Assembly (NCBI GenBank): GCA_016783505.1
Contig: JADHWK010000006.1
Coordinates: 20,276-84,275 of the forward strand
DNA: 64,000 bases
DNA from: Candidatus Zhuqueibacterota bacterium
GTDB lineage: Bacteria; BS750m-G25
Direction: 5' to 3'
In this document: in pieces, positions 736-51,900 of the stretch
Layout of the letters: every line of letters starts with the position of its first letter
Position numbering within the stretch: the stretch's first letter is position 1
Notes under the pieces: model-generated
The model's input: only the letters and a program-made list of their open reading frames with translations
Databases searched by the model: none
Told to the model about the DNA's origin: nothing
Program-made: the position numbers and the translations under genes

Positions 736-1601
736 TCTCTACGATTTTAATAAGCCTTCGTCCCAATCAGTGGACGAAGAATCTTTTCCTCTTCGCCGGC
801 ATCGTTTTTTCCCGTCAGTTGACGAATATGGAGGCCTTAACCAAGGTCCTGGGGGGCTTTATCGCTTTCTGTCTCCTTTCCAGTGCCAACTATCTGATCA
901 ACGATGTGCTGGACATAGAGGAGGACAGGCAGCATCCGGTCAAGTCCCGGAGGCCTATTCCCAGCGGGGCGTTATCGGTCAGGCTGGCGGTGGCCGTTGC
1001 CCTGGGGATGATGGCCGGGGGGTTGCTGCTATCTTTCCTCCTTAATCCCGTGTTCGGACTGGTTGCCCTGGGTTATCTGGTGTTGACCGTGGCCTATTCC
1101 TTAGCCCTGAAAAATGTGGTGCTGGTGGACATCCTGACGGTGGCAGTGGGGTATGTGCTGCGGGCCATCGGGGGGGCGGCGGTGATCGGGGTGGAAATCT
1201 CCTCCTGGCTTCTGATCTGCACCATCCTACTTTCCCTGTTTTTGGTATTGGGCAAGCGGAGGGGGGATCTGGTTTTGGCGGTTTCTAATCCCAGCGGAAA
1301 TCGGAGAACCTTGCAAAAATATGACCTGACCCTGTTGGATCAGATGATCACCATCACCGGCGCAGCGGCTATTCTGTCCTATGCCCTGTATACCATGTCG
1401 GCACGTACGGTTGGCGAGTTTCATACCGAGAACCTGCGGTATACCTTAATCTTCGTCGTCTACGGCATCTTCCGTTATCTTTACCTGCTTCGGAAAGGGG
1501 AGGGGCGGGCGCCGGAAGAAATTCTAATCACAGACAAACCCCTGCTTATAAATTTGATCCTATGGGCTGGGTGTGTGGGTTTAGTTATTTACAGTTACTA
1601 A
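732..1601 (+). CDS. UbiA-family prenyltransferase, decaprenyl-phosphate phosphoribosyltransferase-like
   Basis: 'LRPNQWTKNLFLFAGIVFS', 'NYLINDVLDIEEDRQHPVKSRRPIPSG' (NDxxDxxxD motif); overlaps upstream ORF by 4 nt. Confidence 0.85.
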   Translation: MISTILISLRPNQWTKNLFLFAGIVFSRQLTNMEALTKVLGGFIAFCLLSSANYLINDVLDIEEDRQHPVKSRRPIPSGALSVRLAVAVALGMMAGGLLLSFLLNPVFGLVALGYLVLTVAYSLALKNVVLVDILTVAVGYVLRAIGGAAVIGVEISSWLLICTILLSLFLVLGKRRGDLVLAVSNPSGNRRTLQKYDLTLLDQMITITGAAAILSYALYTMSARTVGEFHTENLRYTLIFVVYGIFRYLYLLRKGEGRAPEEILITDKPLLINLILWAGCVGLVIYSY

Positions 1602-1672
1602 GAACGATCCGGCATCTTACGGATGTCTTTTTATCGCCCCGTATAATTTTCAAGCAATCATAAGCTGCCTTA

Positions 1673-1693
1673 AACACGGTCACAGACCGTGTT
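1673..1693. repeat. REP-like palindrome AACACGGTC-ACA-GACCGTGTT (9-3-9)
   Basis: Perfect inverted repeat with ACA loop; same architecture as palindromes around the RAYT at 58.5 kb. Confidence 0.75.
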
Positions 1694-1745
1694 AGATACC
1701 TTTCTGACATTTTATAGTTATGCGATTTATTAAATCTCCATCTTT

Positions 1746-2831
1746 ATGATGAACTCCAAAGTAGCCGTATTGAAAACTTCGCCCGAGTCGGTAATTGAAG
1801 ATTATGGAAAGCTGATGCGGCTGGCGGAATACGAAAAATACCTACCTAAGGATAAAAACACCGCCTTAAAGATAAACATCTCCTGGCATACCTTCTACCC
1901 TGCCTGTTCGTCCGCTCCCTGGCAGCTGGACGGTGTTATCAAAACCCTTCTAGAAGACGGTTATCCCCGGGAAAAACTGTACGGCTGCCATAATAAGACG
2001 GTGGTGGTGAGTGCTAAGAGAGGGGAAATCAATAACAAACAGAAACAGGTTGTAGTTGATAAATACGGGCTGAAGAACGTTCACCTCTACGAAAATGAAG
2101 AATGGGTGACCTATGAGCCTAAGGGGGATATGCTGGTGTTGCCGGAGATCTACCCCGATGGAATCCGTATCCCCAGACGTCTGATCGGGGACAATGTTAT
2201 CCATCTGCCCACCATGAAGACACATGTGTTTACCACCATTACTGGAGCCATGAAGAATGCCTTCGGGGGGCTGTTGCACGACAAGCGGCACCACACCCAT
2301 TCGGTCATTCACGAAACGTTGGTGGACCTGCTGACCATTCAACGGGAAATACACCCGGGGATCTTCGCAGTGATGGACGGGGCATTCGCCGGGGACGGAC
2401 CCGGTCCCCGGTGCATGGTGCCCCATGTCAAAGGTTACATTTTGGCTTCCAGGGATCAGGTGGCCATTGATGCCGTAGCCGCAAAAATGATGGGGATTGA
2501 CCCATTGTCCCTGAAATTCATCCGGTTAGCCCACCAGCGGGGATTGGGCTGCGGGGATCCGGCTGAGATTGAGATCGTGGGGGACGACATTGAAGGTATT
2601 AACTGGGGTTTCTCAAGGAACGGAAACACCCTCGCCTCCTGGGGTCAAAAGCTAATCTACTGGGGCCCTTTGAAGCCTCTGGAAAAATTCCTATTAGGGA
2701 CGGCTATTGCCCCCTGGTCCTATTTAGCCTCCTTTCTCTATCATGACGTCTATTGGTATCCCTTCGTCGGCAGGAAGAGGGTGAAGGAAAGTTTGGAGAC
2801 GGAATGGGGGCGATTGTTCGAGCGGTACTGA
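1746..2831 (+). CDS. DUF362 domain-containing protein
   Basis: 'INISWHTFYPACSSAPWQLDGVI', 'LPTMKTHVFTTITGAMKNAFGGLLHDKRHHTHSVIHETLVDLL', 'VMDGAFAGDGPGPR' are DUF362 features. Confidence 0.8.
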   Translation: MMNSKVAVLKTSPESVIEDYGKLMRLAEYEKYLPKDKNTALKINISWHTFYPACSSAPWQLDGVIKTLLEDGYPREKLYGCHNKTVVVSAKRGEINNKQKQVVVDKYGLKNVHLYENEEWVTYEPKGDMLVLPEIYPDGIRIPRRLIGDNVIHLPTMKTHVFTTITGAMKNAFGGLLHDKRHHTHSVIHETLVDLLTIQREIHPGIFAVMDGAFAGDGPGPRCMVPHVKGYILASRDQVAIDAVAAKMMGIDPLSLKFIRLAHQRGLGCGDPAEIEIVGDDIEGINWGFSRNGNTLASWGQKLIYWGPLKPLEKFLLGTAIAPWSYLASFLYHDVYWYPFVGRKRVKESLETEWGRLFERY

Positions 2832-2880
2832 CTTCGGGTGATTAATTCTAAATTCAACATTGACCGAAGGTTCGCTGTAG

Positions 2881-3000
2881 TGAAAAAACACTGAATTGTT
2901 GATTGTTAATTGCCAATTGTTAAAACCTAGGTTCCAGCATCAATCAGCAATCATCAATGAGCAATCCTTTCAATGTCATTCGGTGTTTTCTGAATCTGGG
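2881..3000. repeat. MITE-like intergenic repeat, family M1 copy 1
   Basis: 'aacactgaattgttgattgttaattgccaattgttaaaacc...ccagcatcaatcagcaatcatcaatgagcaatc...cggtgttttctgaatctgg'; related copies at 15561, 31938, 56107. Confidence 0.75.
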
Positions 3001-3041
3001 TTAATTTTAGGGGATTGAACTTCTAAAATCTGGGAGGTAGC

Positions 3042-3806
3042 ATGAAAAAAATCTTTTTGGTTCTAGTATTGTTACTTGTCTTTGGTTCCTGGGCCTTTCC
3101 CCAGGGCATGAAGACCGCCGAGATCAAAGGGTTGATTGACTCCCCCACAGCCGGCTCCTTGAAGAGGGCCCAGTATGATTTTGAGGTGAGGCTCTTCCCC
3201 GGGGGTGGGGCCTTGGCCGGTTTTTCCATCGGGCTTTTCGACCGGCTAATGATGGGCATCTTCTACGGGGGGGAAAGCATCATTGCCGATTCGGCCATCA
3301 ACTGGAACGCCCAACCGGGGGTGATCTTCAAATACCGGCTGTTTGAGGAGACGATGAAGTTCCCCGCCCTTTCTATCGGCTACTCCTCGCAGGGCTACGG
3401 GGCCTACAATGATTCCACCAAGCGGTATGCCATCAAGGCCAAAGGGTTCTTCGTGGTGGCCGGGAGAAACTTTAAGGTGGACGGACTGGGTTTTTTGGGC
3501 GTGCACGGAGGGATCAACTACAATCCCCAGGAAAAGATGACGGGGGGGGATCGGCCTGACCTCTACGTAGGCCTGGATAAATCCATCAACGAGGAAATCT
3601 CCGTGGTCGCCGAATACGACTTCGCCTGGAATGATTTGAAAGATTCCTCATTTAAAATCAATACCACAGGCTATCTCAACGCCGGCTTGAGGTGGACCTT
3701 TGCCTCCCGGATCAGCATCGAACTGGATTTTAAGAACATCCTCAAAAAGAACGAGGCTCCGGGGGTCAGTCGGGAGATTAAAATCAATTATTTGGAGTCA
3801 TTTTAA
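3042..3806 (+). CDS. Hypothetical secreted/outer-membrane beta-barrel-like protein
   Basis: Signal peptide MKKIFLVLVLLLVFGSWAFPQ; alternating aromatic/polar beta-rich sequence; RBS gggagg upstream. Confidence 0.6.
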   Translation: MKKIFLVLVLLLVFGSWAFPQGMKTAEIKGLIDSPTAGSLKRAQYDFEVRLFPGGGALAGFSIGLFDRLMMGIFYGGESIIADSAINWNAQPGVIFKYRLFEETMKFPALSIGYSSQGYGAYNDSTKRYAIKAKGFFVVAGRNFKVDGLGFLGVHGGINYNPQEKMTGGDRPDLYVGLDKSINEEISVVAEYDFAWNDLKDSSFKINTTGYLNAGLRWTFASRISIELDFKNILKKNEAPGVSREIKINYLESF

Positions 3807-3875: not shown

Positions 3876-3897
3876 GTGCTAACAAATTTGTTAGCAC
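3876..3897. promoter_or_regulatory. Perfect 22-bp palindrome GTGCTAACAAATTTGTTAGCAC (candidate operator)
   Basis: 11-bp arms with no loop, 24 bp upstream of the ATG at 3922; no following U-tract. Confidence 0.5.
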
Positions 3898-18122: not shown

Positions 18123-18202
18123 CAGAAAGTTAAAATGTTTGTTGACAAAGCCGCGAATTTTTCGTAAATTTAAATAGGTTATTTACTGAAAGTTTTTTTT
18201 AG

Positions 18203-18271
18203 GGGGTCGTAGTTCAGTTGGCTAGAACGCCGGTCTGTCATCCCGATGGTTCGGGACGAGTTCGAGTCTCG
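18203..18271 (+). pseudogene. Truncated tRNA-Asp-like relic (copy 1)
   Basis: GGGGTCGTAGTTCAGTTGGCTAGAACGCCGGTCTGTCA, then TCCCGATGGTTCGGGA hairpin; sequence diverges after TTCGAGTCTCG. Confidence 0.7.
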
Positions 18272-18282
18272 GTGGATGCCTG

Positions 18283-18540
18283 ATGTTTTATGTGTATTTA
18301 TTGCAGAGTGAAAAAGATGGTTCTTTCTACATTGGATATACCTCAAATTTAGAACTCAGAATAAAGGAACACAATAATGGGAAAGGACGTTACACCAACA
18401 AGAAAACACCATGGTCATTGGTTTATGTGGAAAGATTTGCGATAAAAAGCGATGCTTTAAGACGGGAGAGATTTTTAAAAAGGCAGAAAAATAGGGCTTT
18501 TTATGAAAAGTTGATACGGGGTCGTAGTTCAGTTGGCTAG
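18283..18540 (+). CDS. GIY-YIG nuclease family protein; C-terminus and stop lie inside tRNA-Asp
   Basis: 'MFYVYLLQSEKDGSFYIGYTSNLELRIKEHNNGKGRYTNKKTPWSLVYVERF...ALRRERFLKRQK'; last codons overlap tRNA at 18518. Confidence 0.88.
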   Translation: MFYVYLLQSEKDGSFYIGYTSNLELRIKEHNNGKGRYTNKKTPWSLVYVERFAIKSDALRRERFLKRQKNRAFYEKLIRGRSSVG

Positions 18541-18591
18541 AACGCCGGCCTGTCACGCCGGAGGTCGCGAGTTCGAGTCTCGTCGGCCCCG
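18518..18591 (+). tRNA. tRNA-Asp (GTC)
   Basis: GGGGTCG/CGGCCCC acceptor; anticodon arm CCGGC-CTGTCAC-GCCGG; T-arm GCGAG-TTCGAGT-CTCGT. Confidence 0.93.
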
Positions 18592-18650: not shown

Positions 18651-18736
18651 GACTTCCGACAAATACTAGGTTTGGTTTCTGATGTAAAAAATTCTTGATC
18701 TGGTTAAACAGTTATTTGCCGAAGGTTTTTTTATTG

Positions 18737-18815
18737 GGGGGTCGTAGTTCAGTTGGCTAGAACGCCGGTCTGTCATCCCGATGGTTCGGGACGAGTTCGG
18801 GTCTCGTCGGCCCTC
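18737..18815 (+). pseudogene. tRNA-Asp-like relic with disrupted anticodon arm (copy 3)
   Basis: GGGGTCGTAGTTCAGTTGGCTAGAACGCCGGTCTGTCA-TCCCGATGGTTCGGGA-CGAGTTCGGGTCTCGTCGGCCCT. Confidence 0.7.
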
Positions 18816-18922
18816 CGAATGCCAAAAGGCTTTCCCTCTTCATCCAACCTATCGAAAAAGTCTACCAAGCTACACACACCACCATCCCCATAGCTACGCC
18901 CCGCTTAAACGGATCAACGTAA

Positions 18923-19120
18923 AACTTCCACGGTCGCATTGAAGATGAACTCTGTACCACCGAAACCTTTACCTATGAAAAAGAACTTCTGGATAAAATA
19001 ATAAGCTATATGCTGTTCTATCACTTCAAACGCCCACACCAAGGCCTCAGCAATAACAACGGGCGTCCCTCTACATTATACCTTTACATCAAAACTAAAC
19101 TACCTAATGCAACACCATCC
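18923..19120 (+). pseudogene. C-terminal remnant of a DDE transposase/integrase core
   Basis: Translation 'NFHGRIEDELCTTETFTYEKELLDKIISYMLFYHFKRPHQGLSNNNGRPS', preceded by in-frame TAA. Confidence 0.65.
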
Positions 19121-19160
19121 TTGACATTCCTACCGCCAATCATCTTGGATCGGATCCCAA

Positions 19161-19180
19161 TCAGTCGGGCGCATGACCGA
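19161..19180. repeat. REP-like palindrome TCAGTCGGGCGCATGACCGA
   Basis: One mismatch to the reverse complement of 4440-4459. Confidence 0.6.
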
Positions 19181-19268
19181 TCCACCCAAAACAACTGCTC
19201 CAACAAACACGCCCCACTAATAGTGGGGAGGTCTTATCCATTGAGGTCAATATTACTTAATTTTTTAC

Positions 19269-19297
19269 TTGACTTTCAACAAATTAATTATTATATT
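19269..19297 (+). promoter_or_regulatory. Sigma70-like promoter TTGACT-N17-TATATT
   Basis: -35 at 19269-19274, -10 at 19292-19297, 17-nt spacer, upstream of 19342 ORF. Confidence 0.6.
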
Positions 19298-19302
19298 TAG
19301 GA

Positions 19303-19318
19303 GTATGTACGTACATAC
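19303..19318. promoter_or_regulatory. Perfect 16-bp palindrome GTATGTACGTACATAC, candidate operator
   Basis: Immediately downstream of the -10 box, 23 bp upstream of the ATG at 19342; followed by a further ATACTT half-site. Confidence 0.6.
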
Positions 19319-19341
19319 ATACTTCTAAAATTGTAACCTCT

Positions 19342-20262
19342 ATGATCAAGATAACTAAAACAATCAAGATTTCAATACGCCAGGAAGAGTGGATCAAATC
19401 TAAAAAGATTAACTTTTCAGAGTGGGTAAGACAGAAATTAGATGCAGAAATTGATCAACAACTCAAATTGGGAAATAAAGACAGATTCAAGGCTGTTATA
19501 TTAGCTGCTGGCAAAGATACTAACCTTTTTCCGCTCACTGAAGATATACCCAAAGCTCTACTTGATGTCAAGGGAAAAACTATCCTCCAGCGACAGATTG
19601 AAATGCTTAGGATGATCGGGATAAATGATATTGCAGTCGTGCGAGGTTACAAAAAGGATCAGATAAACTTCCCTAATCTGGAGTACTTTGATAATGATGA
19701 TTATGAAAATACAGGAATTTTAGTTTCTTTATTTCTTGCCAGGAAATTTATGGATGGAGATATGGTAGTTTTGTACGGTGACATTCTTTTTGAAATAGGC
19801 ATACTAAAAAGACTAATAGAAACACGATACAACACTACTCTAGTTGTTGATAGAGGTTGGAAAAGGCGCTATCAGGTTAGTCATGAAGAGCATCCTTCTG
19901 CTCCTGAGTTGACTACCCTATCTGACAAAGAGCGGGAGATTGAAATTAGTTCAGTTGGCGTCGGTTTACCTGAAACTAATTCAACATCTGAATTTATCGG
20001 GTTAGCTAAATTATCAACCAGTGCCTGTTCAGTTCTCAAGGATCTTTATGAAAAAGTTTATTGTGTAAATAAGGATAAGAAATTTTACCAGACTGAACAT
20101 ATTAGAAATGCATCCTTCGTCGACTTTATTCAAGAATTGATAAATCGGGGAGAAAAAGTGTCTGCTTTAGAAATTTGGCGGAAATGGATAGATGTAGACA
20201 CGTTTGAAGACTACAGAAATGCATGGAAACTTTTAGACGAAATAACTGGGAGCGAAAAATGA
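19342..20262 (+). CDS. NTP-transferase (LicC/PntC-like nucleotidyltransferase) with N-terminal ribbon-helix-helix-like segment
   Basis: 'KTIKISIRQEEWIKSKKINFSEWVRQKLDAEI' then 'FKAVILAAGKDTNLFPLTEDIPKALLDVKGKTILQRQIEMLRMIGINDIAVVRGYKKDQI'. Confidence 0.8.
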   Translation: MIKITKTIKISIRQEEWIKSKKINFSEWVRQKLDAEIDQQLKLGNKDRFKAVILAAGKDTNLFPLTEDIPKALLDVKGKTILQRQIEMLRMIGINDIAVVRGYKKDQINFPNLEYFDNDDYENTGILVSLFLARKFMDGDMVVLYGDILFEIGILKRLIETRYNTTLVVDRGWKRRYQVSHEEHPSAPELTTLSDKEREIEISSVGVGLPETNSTSEFIGLAKLSTSACSVLKDLYEKVYCVNKDKKFYQTEHIRNASFVDFIQELINRGEKVSALEIWRKWIDVDTFEDYRNAWKLLDEITGSEK

Positions 20263-20687
20263 GAATTGTTTATTCATATTATGTGTTAGATATTGTTCAT
20301 AGAGGGCATTTGTTAATGATGAAAAACGCCAAAGCAATAGCCGGAGTGGATGGTAAGTTAATAGTGGGAATTCTTACCGATGAGGCAGTTTTGGAAAAAA
20401 AGCCAAATAAACCGACACTATCATTTGAGGAAAGAATTGAACTGGCGAGTGCAATAAAATATGTGGATGTTGCAGTCGCACAAGAAACTTATTCACCATT
20501 GCCCAATGTTATGAGAATTAAACCTGATATATTGATGGAAAGTGCAAGTCATGATGAAGAAGAAATTGAAAAGGCAAGGGAATATATGGCGAGTATTAAA
20601 GGCAAAGTTATTGTCATTCCATACTTTCCCTCACAATCATCAACCGAAATAAAAAACATCATAGTTGAAAATAGTAAAAGAGAATAG
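20259..20687 (+). CDS. Cytidylyltransferase-like protein (HxGH superfamily)
   Basis: 'VLDIVHRGHLLMMKNAKAI', 'LIVGILTDEAVLEKKPNKPTLSFEERIELASAIKYVD'; ATGA overlap with upstream stop. Confidence 0.85.
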   Translation: MRIVYSYYVLDIVHRGHLLMMKNAKAIAGVDGKLIVGILTDEAVLEKKPNKPTLSFEERIELASAIKYVDVAVAQETYSPLPNVMRIKPDILMESASHDEEEIEKAREYMASIKGKVIVIPYFPSQSSTEIKNIIVENSKRE

Positions 20688-20720: not shown

Positions 20721-22022
20721 ATGGCAAATGAATTAACTGAGTCTGTAAACCTGCAGATTAGGCACTGGCAAAAGAAAATGTTCTGGCTGATGTGGATAAC
20801 CTACGCCTCATTTTATCTGGGGCGCGTAAATATCTCAGTAGCTTTGCCTGGAATAATGGACGAGTTTGGCTTAACAAAAACTAATATAGGATGGGTTTTG
20901 AGTAGTCTGTTTGCACTGTATGCAATTGGGCAATTTATCAATGGTCAGCTGGGCGATAGACTAAATTCTAGGAGAATCATTACAATTGGATTGTTATCAT
21001 CGGCGGTTTTAAATGTTATTTTTGGGTTCATCGGTGGCATATTAGGTCTTATGGTTGTTATATGGGGATTGAATGGATATTTCCAATCAATGGGTTGGGG
21101 ACCTACTGTAAAAGCGATGGCAAATTGGTTTCCCCAAAATATAAGAGGTAAAATTTCCGGACGTCTGGGTACCTGCTACATTATTGGAGGAGCGCTTTCA
21201 TGGCTGCTGGCTGGCACGATTATTAGATATTTTAATTGGCGTTTTACCTTCTGGTTACCTTCCTTAGTGATGATACTTATTGCTGTTCATTGGTTTATTC
21301 GTGCAAGAAACGCGCCTGAAGAAATAGGGTTACCAAGTTTAGAAGAGCAAGAAAAAGGTATTGAAAACACACAGGTTCGCAAAGATGAGCATATTGGTTT
21401 TCGTAAAACATTAAAGATCACTCTTTTAAATCCCTATGTTTGGTTTGCGGCCTTTGGATTGTTTGGGTTAAACATTGTGCGTTACGGTTTTATGAGCTGG
21501 GCACCGACTTATATGTTTGAAGAGCAAGGTGCAACAATTTCATTAGCAGCTTATAAGGCAATTGCTTTTCCTATAGCTGGGGGTCTTGGTGCAATATTTG
21601 CCGGCTGGGCATCAGATAAGATGTTTAATAACCGAAGGGCGCCGATTGCTTTTATCATGCTGATTTTATTAGCTGTATTCTGCTACCTATACAGAATAGT
21701 TCCTGGAGAAAACTGGATTGTGAGTTTAATTATATTATTATTGATTGGCTTTTTTACTTTTGGTCCTCATATACTGGTGGTAGCTGCATTACCAGCGGAC
21801 TTAGGTTCACGTAAAGCTGCTTCATCTGTAACCGGTTTCATAGATGCAATGGGATATGTGGGAGCAAGCTTAACTGGTGTTGGAACTGGTTATCTTATAG
21901 ACAAATTTAATTGGGATGCTGCTTTTTACTTCTGGATTTTTGGTGCACTCATGGCTGCAGCTATGATGATTTTTATTTGGAAATTTGAACTAAAAAGAGG
22001 AGAATATGAAAATGAGTATTAG
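20721..22022 (+). CDS. MFS transporter, OPA (organophosphate:Pi antiporter, GlpT/UhpT-like) family
   Basis: 'WITYASFYLGRVNISVALPGIMDEFGLTKTNIGWVLSSLFALYAIGQFINGQLGDRLNSRR', 'GYFQSMGWGPTVKAMANWFPQNIRGKISG'. Confidence 0.88.
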   Translation: MANELTESVNLQIRHWQKKMFWLMWITYASFYLGRVNISVALPGIMDEFGLTKTNIGWVLSSLFALYAIGQFINGQLGDRLNSRRIITIGLLSSAVLNVIFGFIGGILGLMVVIWGLNGYFQSMGWGPTVKAMANWFPQNIRGKISGRLGTCYIIGGALSWLLAGTIIRYFNWRFTFWLPSLVMILIAVHWFIRARNAPEEIGLPSLEEQEKGIENTQVRKDEHIGFRKTLKITLLNPYVWFAAFGLFGLNIVRYGFMSWAPTYMFEEQGATISLAAYKAIAFPIAGGLGAIFAGWASDKMFNNRRAPIAFIMLILLAVFCYLYRIVPGENWIVSLIILLLIGFFTFGPHILVVAALPADLGSRKAASSVTGFIDAMGYVGASLTGVGTGYLIDKFNWDAAFYFWIFGALMAAAMMIFIWKFELKRGEYENEY

Positions 22023-23022
22023 AGTTCATGTTAAAATTATGGTTTCAATTTTTGTTAGTGTCCTTTTATTGGCAAGGGGAATTTTACATGCACAGCAATC
22101 TTCCGGTATGAAGATTTCAGGTTTAGCCTACAACGCCTACTACTACGATTTTTCTAAAGGTTCACAGGATAAAAATGGGTTCGATTTAACCCGATTGTAT
22201 CTTACCTTCAAGAAAGGTCTATCTGAAAATATTGGCATTCGAGTCACTACTGACATAGGCCGTGTTTCCAATGATCAGGAGAAAGGATATTACCGGCTTT
22301 ATCTTAAATATGGATATGTCGAATTGAAGAAACCATCCTGGAAGGTTAAACTCCTGGTAGGCCTGCACTATGTTCCATTGTTGGCATTTCAGGAAAACAT
22401 TTGGGGTTATCGTTCTATAAGCAAAATGCTTACCGATCTTGAACATAAACAGACCTCATCAGACCTGGGACTGAAGCTTCATGGTCAATTTCACAAAGAG
22501 TACGGAGAATATGCTTTCTCCTTTGTGAATGGTGAGGGATACAACCAACCAGAAATGGGCAAACACAAAGGGTTCTATGGACGAATATCCCTTAGACCTT
22601 TCCCCATTAGTATACATGGGCTTCGGTTGACGGGGTTCGCTTCCCACATTCAACATGATCAGGACTCCTCAACCACACTCACTACGGGATTTGCCACCCT
22701 TGAATCCAACCGATTAACTCTTGGTGCTGAGTTCTCAGCGGGCAATGATAAAATAGGCAGCCAGAAGACCAAATTTTTAGGCTATTCTTTCTTCAGTGTT
22801 TTCAAACTTACTTCTAAATGGACTATCATTGGCAGAATGGACTGGTTTGACCCTGACACAAGGACAAAAAAGAATTCCCATCTGAGGAAAATCATAGGGA
22901 TCGGATATTGGATAAGTAAAGATGTAGAATTGGTTTTTGACTACCAAGGGGTTCAATATGACGAAGGAATTTCGTATATAAATTCGGACATCCTTTATAC
23001 TCATCTACATTTTAATTTTTAA
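22006..23022 (+). CDS. Porin-like outer membrane beta-barrel protein
   Basis: Signal peptide to 'LHAQQ'; 'GFDLTRLYLTFKKGLSENIGIRVTTDIGRV'; ends 'YTHLHFNF'; overlaps MFS gene. Confidence 0.7.
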   Translation: MKMSIRVHVKIMVSIFVSVLLLARGILHAQQSSGMKISGLAYNAYYYDFSKGSQDKNGFDLTRLYLTFKKGLSENIGIRVTTDIGRVSNDQEKGYYRLYLKYGYVELKKPSWKVKLLVGLHYVPLLAFQENIWGYRSISKMLTDLEHKQTSSDLGLKLHGQFHKEYGEYAFSFVNGEGYNQPEMGKHKGFYGRISLRPFPISIHGLRLTGFASHIQHDQDSSTTLTTGFATLESNRLTLGAEFSAGNDKIGSQKTKFLGYSFFSVFKLTSKWTIIGRMDWFDPDTRTKKNSHLRKIIGIGYWISKDVELVFDYQGVQYDEGISYINSDILYTHLHFNF

Positions 23023-23218
23023 AGCCAGTGGGTATATTGAAGGCGAGCGAATCAGGACAAGTAATTTTATTGAATATGTAAGTATGTATATGTTTGCCGA
23101 TACACGCTACTTATATTGATAATTAACATGAAGTTAGTAGCAACTAAAATTCTTGCACTGAAAATGTATATTTTATAATAACGTGTTGGGGAAAAATAGG
23201 GTAATAAAAAGTTGATAC

Positions 23219-23296
23219 GGGTTCGTAGTTCAGTTGGTTAGGACACCGGCCTGTCATCCTGATGGTTCGGGACGGGATCGAGTCTCGTCGGCCCCG
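23219..23296 (+). pseudogene. tRNA-Asp-like relic (copy 4), preceded by a relic of the GIY-YIG 3' end
   Basis: 'gaaaaatagggtaataaaaagttgatacggg' matches 18489-18520; TCCTGATGGTTCGGGA in place of the anticodon 3' stem. Confidence 0.7.
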
Positions 23297-23349: not shown

Positions 23350-25068
23350 TCAAACCTTTTTCCCAAAAATCCTCAAAATCACCACCAACAATAAAATTCC
23401 AAAAATCAAAGAAATCACCGGGGATATTCCAAATCCCGCTGGTAAGTAGCCGAACAAAACACCGACCCCGGCGGTGGTCAGCGCATAGGGTATCTGGGTG
23501 CGTACATGGTCAATATGGTCGGCTCCGGAGGCCATTGAGGACATGATGGTGGTGTCGGAAATGGGGGAGCAGTGATCCCCGAAGCAGGAGCCGGCGAGCA
23601 CGGCGGCGATGGTGCCCATCAGAATGGAAAATCCCACCCTGGGGTCTATGGCTGCATCTATTGGGACCCGGTGGGCGATGGGGATGATGATGGGCATCAG
23701 GATGGCCATGGTGCCCCAGGAGGTCCCGGTGGCAAACCCGATGAAGGCGGCTATCAGAAAGGCTATCATCGGGATAAAATGGGGCGAGAGCAGCCCTTTA
23801 GTTACCCCAATTACGTAATTGGCGGTGCCCAGGTCTGCGCACACCTTTCCGATGGACCAGGCCAACACTAGTATAATCATGGCGATTATCATTGACCGCA
23901 CCCCTACCATAAAGGCTTCCACCGTCTGTCCCAGGGTCAAGATCCGCTGGGAAAGGGCCAATATGCCCGCCAACGCCGCCCCGGAGAAGGAGGCCCACAT
24001 GAGTACCCGGAAGGAGTCGGCTTCACCGATAATCTGATATAAGGGGACCCCCTGGGCCCCGCTTCCCAGGGTCCGCCATCCGTCCCACCAGAGGCCGAGG
24101 ACGGTGACCAGGATGACGGTGAGGATGGGCAGTAGGGCGTTGCGGGCCCGGGGGGGGACAGTATCGGGGGGCATACCTTGGGTCAGTTCTTTATCCGATA
24201 GGGGAACAGCCCCGTCCGCCAGCACCTTTCCTTCCTTCCTGCTTCTCCGTTCCGCACGCGCCATTGGGCCGTAGTCACGGCCCATCAAAGCCAACAGCAC
24301 GATGAAGATCAGGGTGAGCAGGCTGTAAAAGCGATAAGGGATGGTCTGGATGAAGGTCAGATAAATGTTTCGCTGGATGTCCAGGTTTACGAAAGCGTCC
24401 CTGATTAAGCCCATCTCAAACCCGATCCAGGTGGAGATTAAGGCCACGGAGGCCACCGGGGCGGCGGTGGAGTCAACGATGTAGGAGAGCTTCTCCCGGG
24501 ATATGCGCAAGCGGTCAGTGAAGGGTCGCATGGTGTTGCCCACGATCAAGGTGTTGGCGTAATCGTCGAAGAAGATCAAAACGCCCATGGCCCATGTGGC
24601 TAGCTGCCCCGTGCGTGGGGTGTGGGCAAATGTGGATATTCGGTCAACTATGCCCTTTGCTCCCCCGGATCGGGTAATGATCCCCACCATCCCCCCGAGG
24701 ATGAGGCTGAACATGATAATGGAGGCGTGATCCCGGTCGGCTAATGCCGGTATCAAATAGGAATCCAGGGTGCGCATAAGTCCGATGATGGGGTTCCAAT
24801 GGGCTATAAACCAGGCCCCCAGCCAGACCCCGCAGAACAGGGAGAGGATGACCTGGCGGGACAGGAGGGCTAAGAGGATGGCTAAGATGGGGGGAAGAAG
24901 GCTCAAAAAACCGTAACCATCCGGAGGAGATGAGGCGGCATTCTCGGCCCAGGACGAACCGGGAATCAGACTCAATGCTATAATGGAGAAGAAAAAAACA
25001 GTTCGAGCCATGGGATATTCTCTACACGGAATAATGGAAGATTGGAAGACTGGAAGATTGGGATCCAT
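23350..25068 (-). CDS. Na+/H+ antiporter NhaC-family protein
   Basis: 'LALLSRQVILSLFCGVWLGAW', 'GVLIFFDDYANTLIVGNTMRPFTDRLRISREKLSYIVDSTAAPVASVALISTWIGFE'; likely start at 25011 (MARTVFF). Confidence 0.88.
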   Translation of the reverse strand: MDPNLPVFQSSIIPCREYPMARTVFFFSIIALSLIPGSSWAENAASSPPDGYGFLSLLPPILAILLALLSRQVILSLFCGVWLGAWFIAHWNPIIGLMRTLDSYLIPALADRDHASIIMFSLILGGMVGIITRSGGAKGIVDRISTFAHTPRTGQLATWAMGVLIFFDDYANTLIVGNTMRPFTDRLRISREKLSYIVDSTAAPVASVALISTWIGFEMGLIRDAFVNLDIQRNIYLTFIQTIPYRFYSLLTLIFIVLLALMGRDYGPMARAERRSRKEGKVLADGAVPLSDKELTQGMPPDTVPPRARNALLPILTVILVTVLGLWWDGWRTLGSGAQGVPLYQIIGEADSFRVLMWASFSGAALAGILALSQRILTLGQTVEAFMVGVRSMIIAMIILVLAWSIGKVCADLGTANYVIGVTKGLLSPHFIPMIAFLIAAFIGFATGTSWGTMAILMPIIIPIAHRVPIDAAIDPRVGFSILMGTIAAVLAGSCFGDHCSPISDTTIMSSMASGADHIDHVRTQIPYALTTAGVGVLFGYLPAGFGISPVISLIFGILLLVVILRIFGKKV

Positions 25069-44828: not shown

Positions 44829-46280
44829 TTATTTTGTCTCGGCTTGGTGAAATTTGGCGCCATAATACTTGTAAAAGGATCGAAAGGCGTCCTTCAGCAC
44901 CGGCCAGCGAACGGTCTCGCGCAGGATTTCCCGGTAAAATTTGTGAGCCGATACGCTGTTGAACAGGGCATTCTGCATTATTTGATTTTGATGGGCGAAA
45001 TGGATAAAAAAATCCAAAAGGCCGTAATTGGTGCTTAAGATGGCAAACCGCCGCATGAAATGCCCATAGGGTAAGTCATGAATGATCTCGTGGCAGGTTT
45101 CCTCAAAGAGCTTAAACGCCTGGCGCGAGATCCCTTCATGCATCATCACCTGGGCGGCATGAATGCCGCTTTGAAACGCCGAATTGATCCCCTTTCCTTT
45201 AAACGGCCGCACCAAACCGGCCGCATCCCCAATCATTACATAGCGGTGTCCATAATAGTTCTTAGCGATGGAAATGGGGAATTTGCCTTTAAAATAGAAA
45301 AGCGAGTTGTGATCGTAGCTATCATTCGAAGGCAGAATCTGACGCACGGGAGAGTAGCGCAAAAAGGTGTCCATCCAATGGGTATTGATGTCCTTGCCGG
45401 CGATATTGATAGTGATGTGATTGTATTTCGGGGTGATGGCGCCGAACTCGATCCGACGGTAGGAAGGAAGAAAGGCAAAAATCTTGTTTCCGATCTGCGC
45501 CATATAATCCATCCCGGGATGGATTTTGGTCACAATGGAATACAAAAATTCCGGCGAACGGTAATCGGTGGCGCGTTCAAACATCTGGATGGACCCGTCA
45601 TCGAGGCCGAAGGCACCCACCACTACATCGCAGCGGAGATAGTCGGTTTCCGAATAGAGAATGACCCGATCCGGGTGCAGTTCCAGATCAGTTACCCTGC
45701 TTTGGCGCACATCTACACCCCACTGCAGGGCCTGATCCAACAAATAACTGTCAAAAGTAATGCGGCGGACAGCAAAAGAGGGTTCCGATTCATCCTGCAA
45801 TTCAATGTGGCGGTTGTCGGAATACAGGATATAACCGGTAATCTCCCGCTGGACAAGATGGTCGGGAAACGGCACCTGCAACTGATCTTCCAGTAAGGAA
45901 CGGATCGGAGGGGACAGCACCCCTACGCATTGGTTGTAATGGGGCACACCGGAGTAGGTTTTACCCTCGTAGATCACGGTTTGCACGCGAATGCCGCGTT
46001 CCCGGGCCAACCTTTTCAACGTAATGGCACAAGCCATCCCGCCAGGCCCACCGCCGACTATGCCCACTATGGATCCATCCTGCAAACGTTCCATTCCCCA
46101 TTTCGCCCGCACCTTGGAAACATCCGTATCCGGCAGAGATACAGGCCGGATGTTCTGGGCAGGGAATTTCTCCCTGAAGCTTTTCAGAGTCTTGCGAACC
46201 ATGAACAACTGAAAGACGGGATTAATAAATTTCGAAAAGATTTTTTGATACCATTGGCGACCAGTGAACATGTTCCACAC
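44829..46280 (-). CDS. Geranylgeranyl-reductase-family FAD-dependent oxidoreductase
   Basis: 'VGIVGGGPGGMACAITLKRLARER', 'YNQCVGVLSPPIRSLLE', 'YVMIGDAAGLVRPFKGKGINSAFQSGIHAAQ'. Confidence 0.83.
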   Translation of the reverse strand: MWNMFTGRQWYQKIFSKFINPVFQLFMVRKTLKSFREKFPAQNIRPVSLPDTDVSKVRAKWGMERLQDGSIVGIVGGGPGGMACAITLKRLARERGIRVQTVIYEGKTYSGVPHYNQCVGVLSPPIRSLLEDQLQVPFPDHLVQREITGYILYSDNRHIELQDESEPSFAVRRITFDSYLLDQALQWGVDVRQSRVTDLELHPDRVILYSETDYLRCDVVVGAFGLDDGSIQMFERATDYRSPEFLYSIVTKIHPGMDYMAQIGNKIFAFLPSYRRIEFGAITPKYNHITINIAGKDINTHWMDTFLRYSPVRQILPSNDSYDHNSLFYFKGKFPISIAKNYYGHRYVMIGDAAGLVRPFKGKGINSAFQSGIHAAQVMMHEGISRQAFKLFEETCHEIIHDLPYGHFMRRFAILSTNYGLLDFFIHFAHQNQIMQNALFNSVSAHKFYREILRETVRWPVLKDAFRSFYKYYGAKFHQAETK

Positions 46281-51819: not shown

Positions 51820-51900
51820 TTATTTATTACTAATTTGGACACAGTAGCCCCCGAATTAATTCGGGGGTTAACGATTTCTTAACAACTTAACAACAGAAAT

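Follow-up and report, generated by a model that had tools for sequence, protein, structure and literature searches.

A ribbon-helix-helix-like domain fused to a LicC/PntC-like nucleotidyltransferase: a candidate autoregulator of a putative phosphonate salvage operon

PutA is a trifunctional protein that combines a ribbon-helix-helix (RHH) domain with proline dehydrogenase and P5C dehydrogenase, and it serves as a substrate-responsive repressor of its own uptake and utilisation genes (PMC5293562). NadR of Enterobacterales joins an HTH domain to an NMN adenylyltransferase and a kinase and represses a salvage transporter (PMC12421817). In known operons for 2-aminoethylphosphonate (2AEP), control rests with the Pho system and with LysR regulators that are separate proteins; the AepR LysR-type regulators place 2AEP uptake genes under substrate-inducible control (PMC9311074, PMC8316502). 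CcdA binds a 6-bp palindrome located just downstream of its own -10 element (PMC3920265).

In the window (the whole 64,000-nt stretch of marine bacterial DNA analysed here), the ORF at 19342-20262 (+ strand) encodes a 306-aa protein in which an RHH-like N-terminus is followed by a LicC/PntC-like nucleotidyltransferase domain. We consider it probable that this protein is an autogenous repressor built on the fold of a phosphonate-activating enzyme, with its RHH-like tip acting on a GTACGTAC palindrome. The initial annotation had described the fusion as an unfamiliar architecture, and our literature search likewise returned nothing that joins RHH, nucleotidyltransferase, and phosphonate.

Domain architecture of the fusion protein

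Seven full-length homologues beyond the window's protein were found among 245 Neomarinimicrobiota genomes (one each in G001, G511, G403, G517, and G526, and two in G518). The relative in G001, a Candidatus Neomarinimicrobiota MAG (locus L001), is 82% identical, N-terminus included. No further full-length fusion was found among 290 genomes spread over the taxonomic domain, and no homologues were found in viral contigs. The plasmid relatives share ~25-31% identity among the matches listed, none of which was shown with the N-terminus.

Residues 1-45 (19342-19476, + strand) are a probable, not an established, RHH DNA-binding domain of the MetJ/Arc superfamily with a short, CcdA-like helix A, an assignment drawn from conservation, AlphaFold2 modelling, weak profile matches, and hhalign. 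The conserved pattern is KTIKI...EW.K....NFS.WVR..LD..I, and 17 of 48 columns are invariant among sequences 48-75% identical to that of the window. AlphaFold2 predicted an extended stretch (residues 1-11) followed by two helices (12-20 and 25-43) at a moderate pLDDT of 66, and the full-length model has the same N-terminal helices as the isolated one. These are models of the monomer, and a strand is expected of the extended stretch only in the dimer. In Pfam and NCBIfam, none of the eight members matched an RHH family above the cut-off. Below threshold, profile matches were obtained to CcdA for three of the eight (best 0.038), to DUF6290 for two (0.015), and to RelB, all of them RHH or RHH-linked antitoxin families; the window's own member had none. 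When the N-terminal profile was compared with F-plasmid CcdA using hhalign, a gapless alignment over 35 residues (7-41) resulted, with a score equalled or beaten by 3 of 925 real-protein decoy windows, and the RHH_1 members as a set fell in the upper part of the same ranking. Foldseek returned zero matches for the N-terminal model. What had been called an RHH-like N-terminus is thus conserved and has a predicted extended-helix-helix order compatible with RHH; the similarity to known families is weak and no confident fold match was obtained.

Searches for the origin of this domain gave little. Strong matches to the N-terminal profile in 244 genomes were full-length fusions only, with no stand-alone source, and CcdA relatives sought on plasmids with a distant CcdA were not found. 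The one match of the profile against PDB sequences, AcrIIA5 (E 0.2), was taken as chance.

The remainder of the protein (residues 46-306 and the stop codon; 19477-20262, + strand) is a LicC/PntC-like domain (PF12804/PF00483), as the initial annotation had recognised. It passes the Pfam cut-off (NTP_transf_3 type), and its nearest solved relatives by sequence are 1jyk (E 6e-19) and 6pd1 (E 2e-13), in agreement with the Foldseek fold matches. In place of the signature GxG(T/S)Rx4-8PK, all eight orthologues have G(K/E)DxxL...PK (GKDxx in the window) and have lost the Arg. Because of this loss, we class the window's protein as a PntC homologue, not as a proven PntC enzyme, and since the Arg is missing in the whole clade, the label "enzyme" is itself uncertain. 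Judged from these residues, the domain may serve chiefly in sensing, and a loss of catalysis is possible.

The transferase half could indeed be non-catalytic and sense its ligand only, which would make the protein a dedicated phosphonate/CTP-responsive repressor and leave the chemistry to the PF01467 protein encoded next to it. We give this variant, which is compatible with autorepression, a substantial chance that falls short of even. Exchange of the equivalent Arg in Treponema PntC (Arg15Ala), like Lys25Ala, leaves <10% activity (PMC6697681), and the neighbouring PF01467 cytidylyltransferase retains an intact HxGH in all eight loci; both points agree with a sensor-only domain. On the other hand, P70-K71, D147, and D284/D286 are kept, and many PEP-mutase-fused transferases likewise lack the Arg yet have the PK, so a functional variant is also conceivable.

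In the tree, the fusion proteins group together with full support, and their clade is placed with the PEP-mutase-fused transferases (support of 84/85 for the two combined). Its neighbour is L007, in which PEP_mutase and a transferase are fused and which is adjoined by a phosphonopyruvate decarboxylase gene. Because the clade nests among PEP-mutase fusions, the RHH-like tip occupies the place that PEP mutase has in the relatives. We tentatively suggest, as one possible history, that a cytidylyltransferase of the PEP-mutase clade exchanged PEP mutase for RHH, lost the catalytic Arg, and became a repressor that senses phosphonate (and CTP) through the old active site.

Two other proteins from this comparison deserve mention. 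In the L007 protein (1492-3237 of that locus), the EDKx5NS motif reads EDNIFPKRCS and the transferase has PT instead of PK, so that both active sites look unusual; from its sequence, it may be a PEP mutase variant or a phosphonopyruvate hydrolase. L003 (1498-2259; G000, contig C42) encodes a stand-alone LicC/PntC-like paralogue in which GEGTR...PK is intact. Its gene forms a row with those for a methyltransferase, a glutamine amidotransferase-like protein, and a sulfotransferase-like protein; a similar pairing occurs on a marine Roseovarius plasmid.

The promoter palindrome and its conservation

A sigma-70-like promoter, TTGACT-N17-TATATT, was located by sequence and pattern scan at 19269-19297 (+ strand), with the -35 element at 19269-19274 and the -10 element at 19292-19297. 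The predicted operator (19303-19322, + strand) consists of the perfect 16-bp palindrome GTATGTACGTACATAC at 19303-19318 and a fifth tetramer, ATAC, and it overlaps the expected transcription start. It is built of tandem RYAC/GTRY tetramers, and ATACTT directly follows the palindrome. Promoter, palindrome with ATACTT, and the ORF at 19342 all lie where they had been annotated at the outset. The promoter pattern alone is at chance level (20 seen vs 15.8 expected in a 6-kb scan). Perfect palindromes of at least 16 bp number 5 in the window vs 1.05 expected, and the probability of finding one in a 150-nt stretch of such composition is ~0.006; these palindrome statistics by themselves are suggestive only. 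The further perfect palindromes in the window (16-22 bp) are at 3876-3897, 23807-23822, 45506-45525, and 51848-51867.

The operator rises above chance level because GTACGTAC is conserved at the same place in all seven testable homologous promoters and found nowhere else in the seven genomes. It lies within or near GTRYGTACGTACRYAC, close to the start site, in each of the seven genes with upstream DNA (that of the window and six more); the G526 promoter was left out because only 7 nt precede the gene on its contig. Homologues sharing both the N-terminus and an upstream palindrome had been set beforehand as a test of self-regulation; seven further homologues with this N-terminus came to light, and the expectation was borne out. 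The aligned motif is GTRY-GTAC-GTAC-RYAY, with almost strict purine-pyrimidine alternation, and it lies 15-31 nt upstream of the ATG in 7/7 cases. A TTGA(C/T)-type -35 is discernible for six of the seven orthologues. In the five promoters with a clear -35, the motif centre is 9-13 nt downstream of the -10; in the other two (G001 and G403) the -10 was wrongly placed by the automated assignment, which took a best-scoring pair farther upstream, and a TTGACT promoter can be recognised by eye in G001.

When the seven whole genomes (~21 Mb) were searched for the site with up to one mismatch, all matches fell at these promoters, and a control with the reversed pattern had 0 matches; among 119 loci examined, exact matches likewise occurred at these promoters only. 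The genes upstream of the operon vary among the loci, so the conservation of the operator is not inherited context. The homologues all come from one phylum, and the promoters are therefore not fully independent. A related half-site that the initial annotation had reported near 23078-23091 (actually 23080-23092) did not match the operator even with three mismatches allowed, and it is set aside as chance.

Two alternatives would account for the palindrome in other ways. Some other, unlinked regulator could use it as an operator, the N-terminal extension having another role such as oligomerisation. The RHH assignment is weak by sequence and DNA binding is a prediction, which gives this reading some room; even so, we think it improbable, since in six genomes the site precedes genes with this N-terminus and occurs at no other place in any of them. 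To have an unlinked regulator for just one target would also be less economical, and the predicted N-terminal secondary structure fits RHH. The palindrome might instead work in RNA, as a hairpin at the 5' end of the transcript. Some leaders do fold (z ~-2.4 in the window and in one G518 copy), whereas three of seven fold no better than shuffled sequences (z 0.03, 0.17, and -0.29). The constraint also falls on the DNA letters, with an invariant GTACGTAC core and purine-pyrimidine alternation, and not on compensating pairs, so we do not favour the hairpin and regard it as very unlikely.

The operon, its candidate substrate, and its genomic setting

Three genes follow on the + strand: the second nucleotidyltransferase, with the PF01467 (CTP_transf_like) domain and HxGH intact (20259-20687); a GlpT/AepP-like transporter of the MFS organophosphate antiporter family (20721-22022); and a predicted porin-like outer-membrane beta-barrel with a weak OMP_b-brl match (22006-23022). 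A barrel or porin-like gene is also found 3' of the importer in homologous loci. The PF01467 protein and the N-terminal domain of the G403 PEP mutase share 31% identity, and fusion to PEP mutase is seen for precisely these two families, PF12804 and PF01467 (PMC6697681). In two loci, a SAM methyltransferase gene lies between the RHH-PntC and PF01467 genes (L050, 6958-7689; L051, 1153-1884); its product might methylate the phosphonate.

The importer is a GlpT-family MFS protein in five loci and consists of PhnC, PhnD, and a PhnD-PhnE fusion in the other three. In the five MFS proteins (27-30% identity to GlpT), R45 and R269 are kept and K80 and H165 are replaced; we take the former pair to be the phosphate-binding residues of GlpT and the latter its glycerol-side residues. 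AepP, a proven 2AEP permease, is a GlpT relative with the same kind of changes (PMC8316502). PhnC and PhnE score above the curated phosphonate-transporter cut-offs in L053, and the same genes are present in L054 and L055. In L053 (4319-5878), as in L054 and L055, a PhnD-type binding domain and the PhnE permease form one polypeptide, and a separate PhnD is adjacent. In G518 the operon is present twice (L053 and L055), and each copy has a separate operator and PhnCDE importer.

PEP mutase was found in one of seven genomes and not in the other six, which are drafts (that of the window is 60% complete); these bacteria therefore probably import phosphonate. From its gene content, the operon looks like one for phosphonate salvage, and with the neighbouring genes as a guide our best guess for the imported ligand is 2-aminoethylphosphonate. 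A true autoregulating RHH protein could also control an operon for another organophosphate, such as phosphocholine or glycerophosphate. LicC, a CTP:phosphocholine cytidylyltransferase, is the solved protein that matches best by sequence, phosphate monoesters are carried by transporters of the GlpT family, and among the closest plasmid matches to the second enzyme are proteins located beside CDP-glycerol transferases, TagD, and HldE. The scores of PhnC and PhnE, and the grouping of the catalytic domain with PEP-mutase-fused transferases, argue against such a substrate, which we consider unlikely.

Returning to phosphonate as the preferred substrate, the G001 operon has as neighbours two genes for CDP-glycerol-type transferases and one that is LicC-like; LicD lies ~12 kb off, and LicD is present in five of seven genomes. 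Such surroundings would suit the use of phosphonate in surface decoration. For Neomarinimicrobiota, the locus suggests a salvage route: phosphonate from the environment would be imported and activated with CTP, not broken down, possibly for decorating the cell surface.

The operon stretch has 37% G+C, compared with ~50-58% in its surroundings, and is flanked by tRNA-Asp-like repeats, one at 18508 and one at 23209. Together with the 82% identical locus elsewhere, the low G+C and the flanking repeats suggest horizontal acquisition. Four tRNA-Asp-like copies surround the operon (18193-18271, 18508-18586, 18728-18806, and 23209-23287), two of which were called by ARAGORN. The copies at 18508 and 23209 have AAGTTGATACGGG upstream in common, which resembles the trace left when an island is acquired at a tRNA gene. 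Just upstream of the operon, at 18920-19200, a remnant reads by eye like the end of a transposase or integrase (YHFKRPHQGLSNNNGRPS).

Proposed regulation and comparison with known systems

Under the proposed mechanism, the RHH-like tips would dimerise, and their KTIKI segments would enter the GTACGTAC palindrome just past the -10 element as an antiparallel beta-ribbon. The bound dimer would block transcription of the operon for RHH-PntC, the PF01467 cytidylyltransferase, the phosphonate/organophosphate importer, and the outer-membrane barrel. The LicC/PntC-like domain would act as the ligand sensor, and perhaps still as an enzyme: binding or turnover of imported phosphonate and/or CTP would lower the affinity for DNA and so induce the salvage operon. 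The locus also offers a defined candidate protein-operator pair that could serve as a phosphonate biosensor.

The closest parallel for the N-terminus is CcdA, for which similarity in the RHH region is gapless and the palindrome is placed just 3' of the -10 in both systems. The window's protein differs in its fusion to an enzyme domain, without a toxin partner, and in its GTACGTAC-based operator, where the F ccd promoter has GTATAC in the corresponding position. AepR regulators differ more widely, as they are separate LysR activator proteins of unrelated fold. The PntC/LicC proteins and PEP mutase-PntC fusions share the catalytic domain, and the latter are likewise fused at the N-terminus of the transferase. 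In the window's clade, an RHH-like domain stands in for PEP mutase, the GxG(T/S)R Arg is lost, and the gene belongs to a salvage operon with an importer, mostly in genomes lacking PEP mutase.

With NadR, the window's protein would share the fusion of a DNA-binding domain (here predicted) to a nucleotidyltransferase and the control of a salvage transporter. NadR has an HTH and not an RHH domain, belongs to another nucleotidyltransferase family, serves NAD salvage, and is not the first gene of the operon that it represses. PutA resembles it in carrying an N-terminal RHH domain on an enzyme (predicted in our case), although the enzyme fold and pathway are others and helix A of the window's protein is short and CcdA-like. 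PutA also controls a separate transporter gene, whereas the system described here has one operon and one site. One hallmark of a trigger enzyme, an operator that lies at the promoter of the controlled genes and is conserved among relatives, was found at seven of seven promoters. By analogy, the best reading is an autorepressing "trigger enzyme" that follows the logic of PutA and NadR, with control apparently built into the activating enzyme itself, which would add a rare case to these two.
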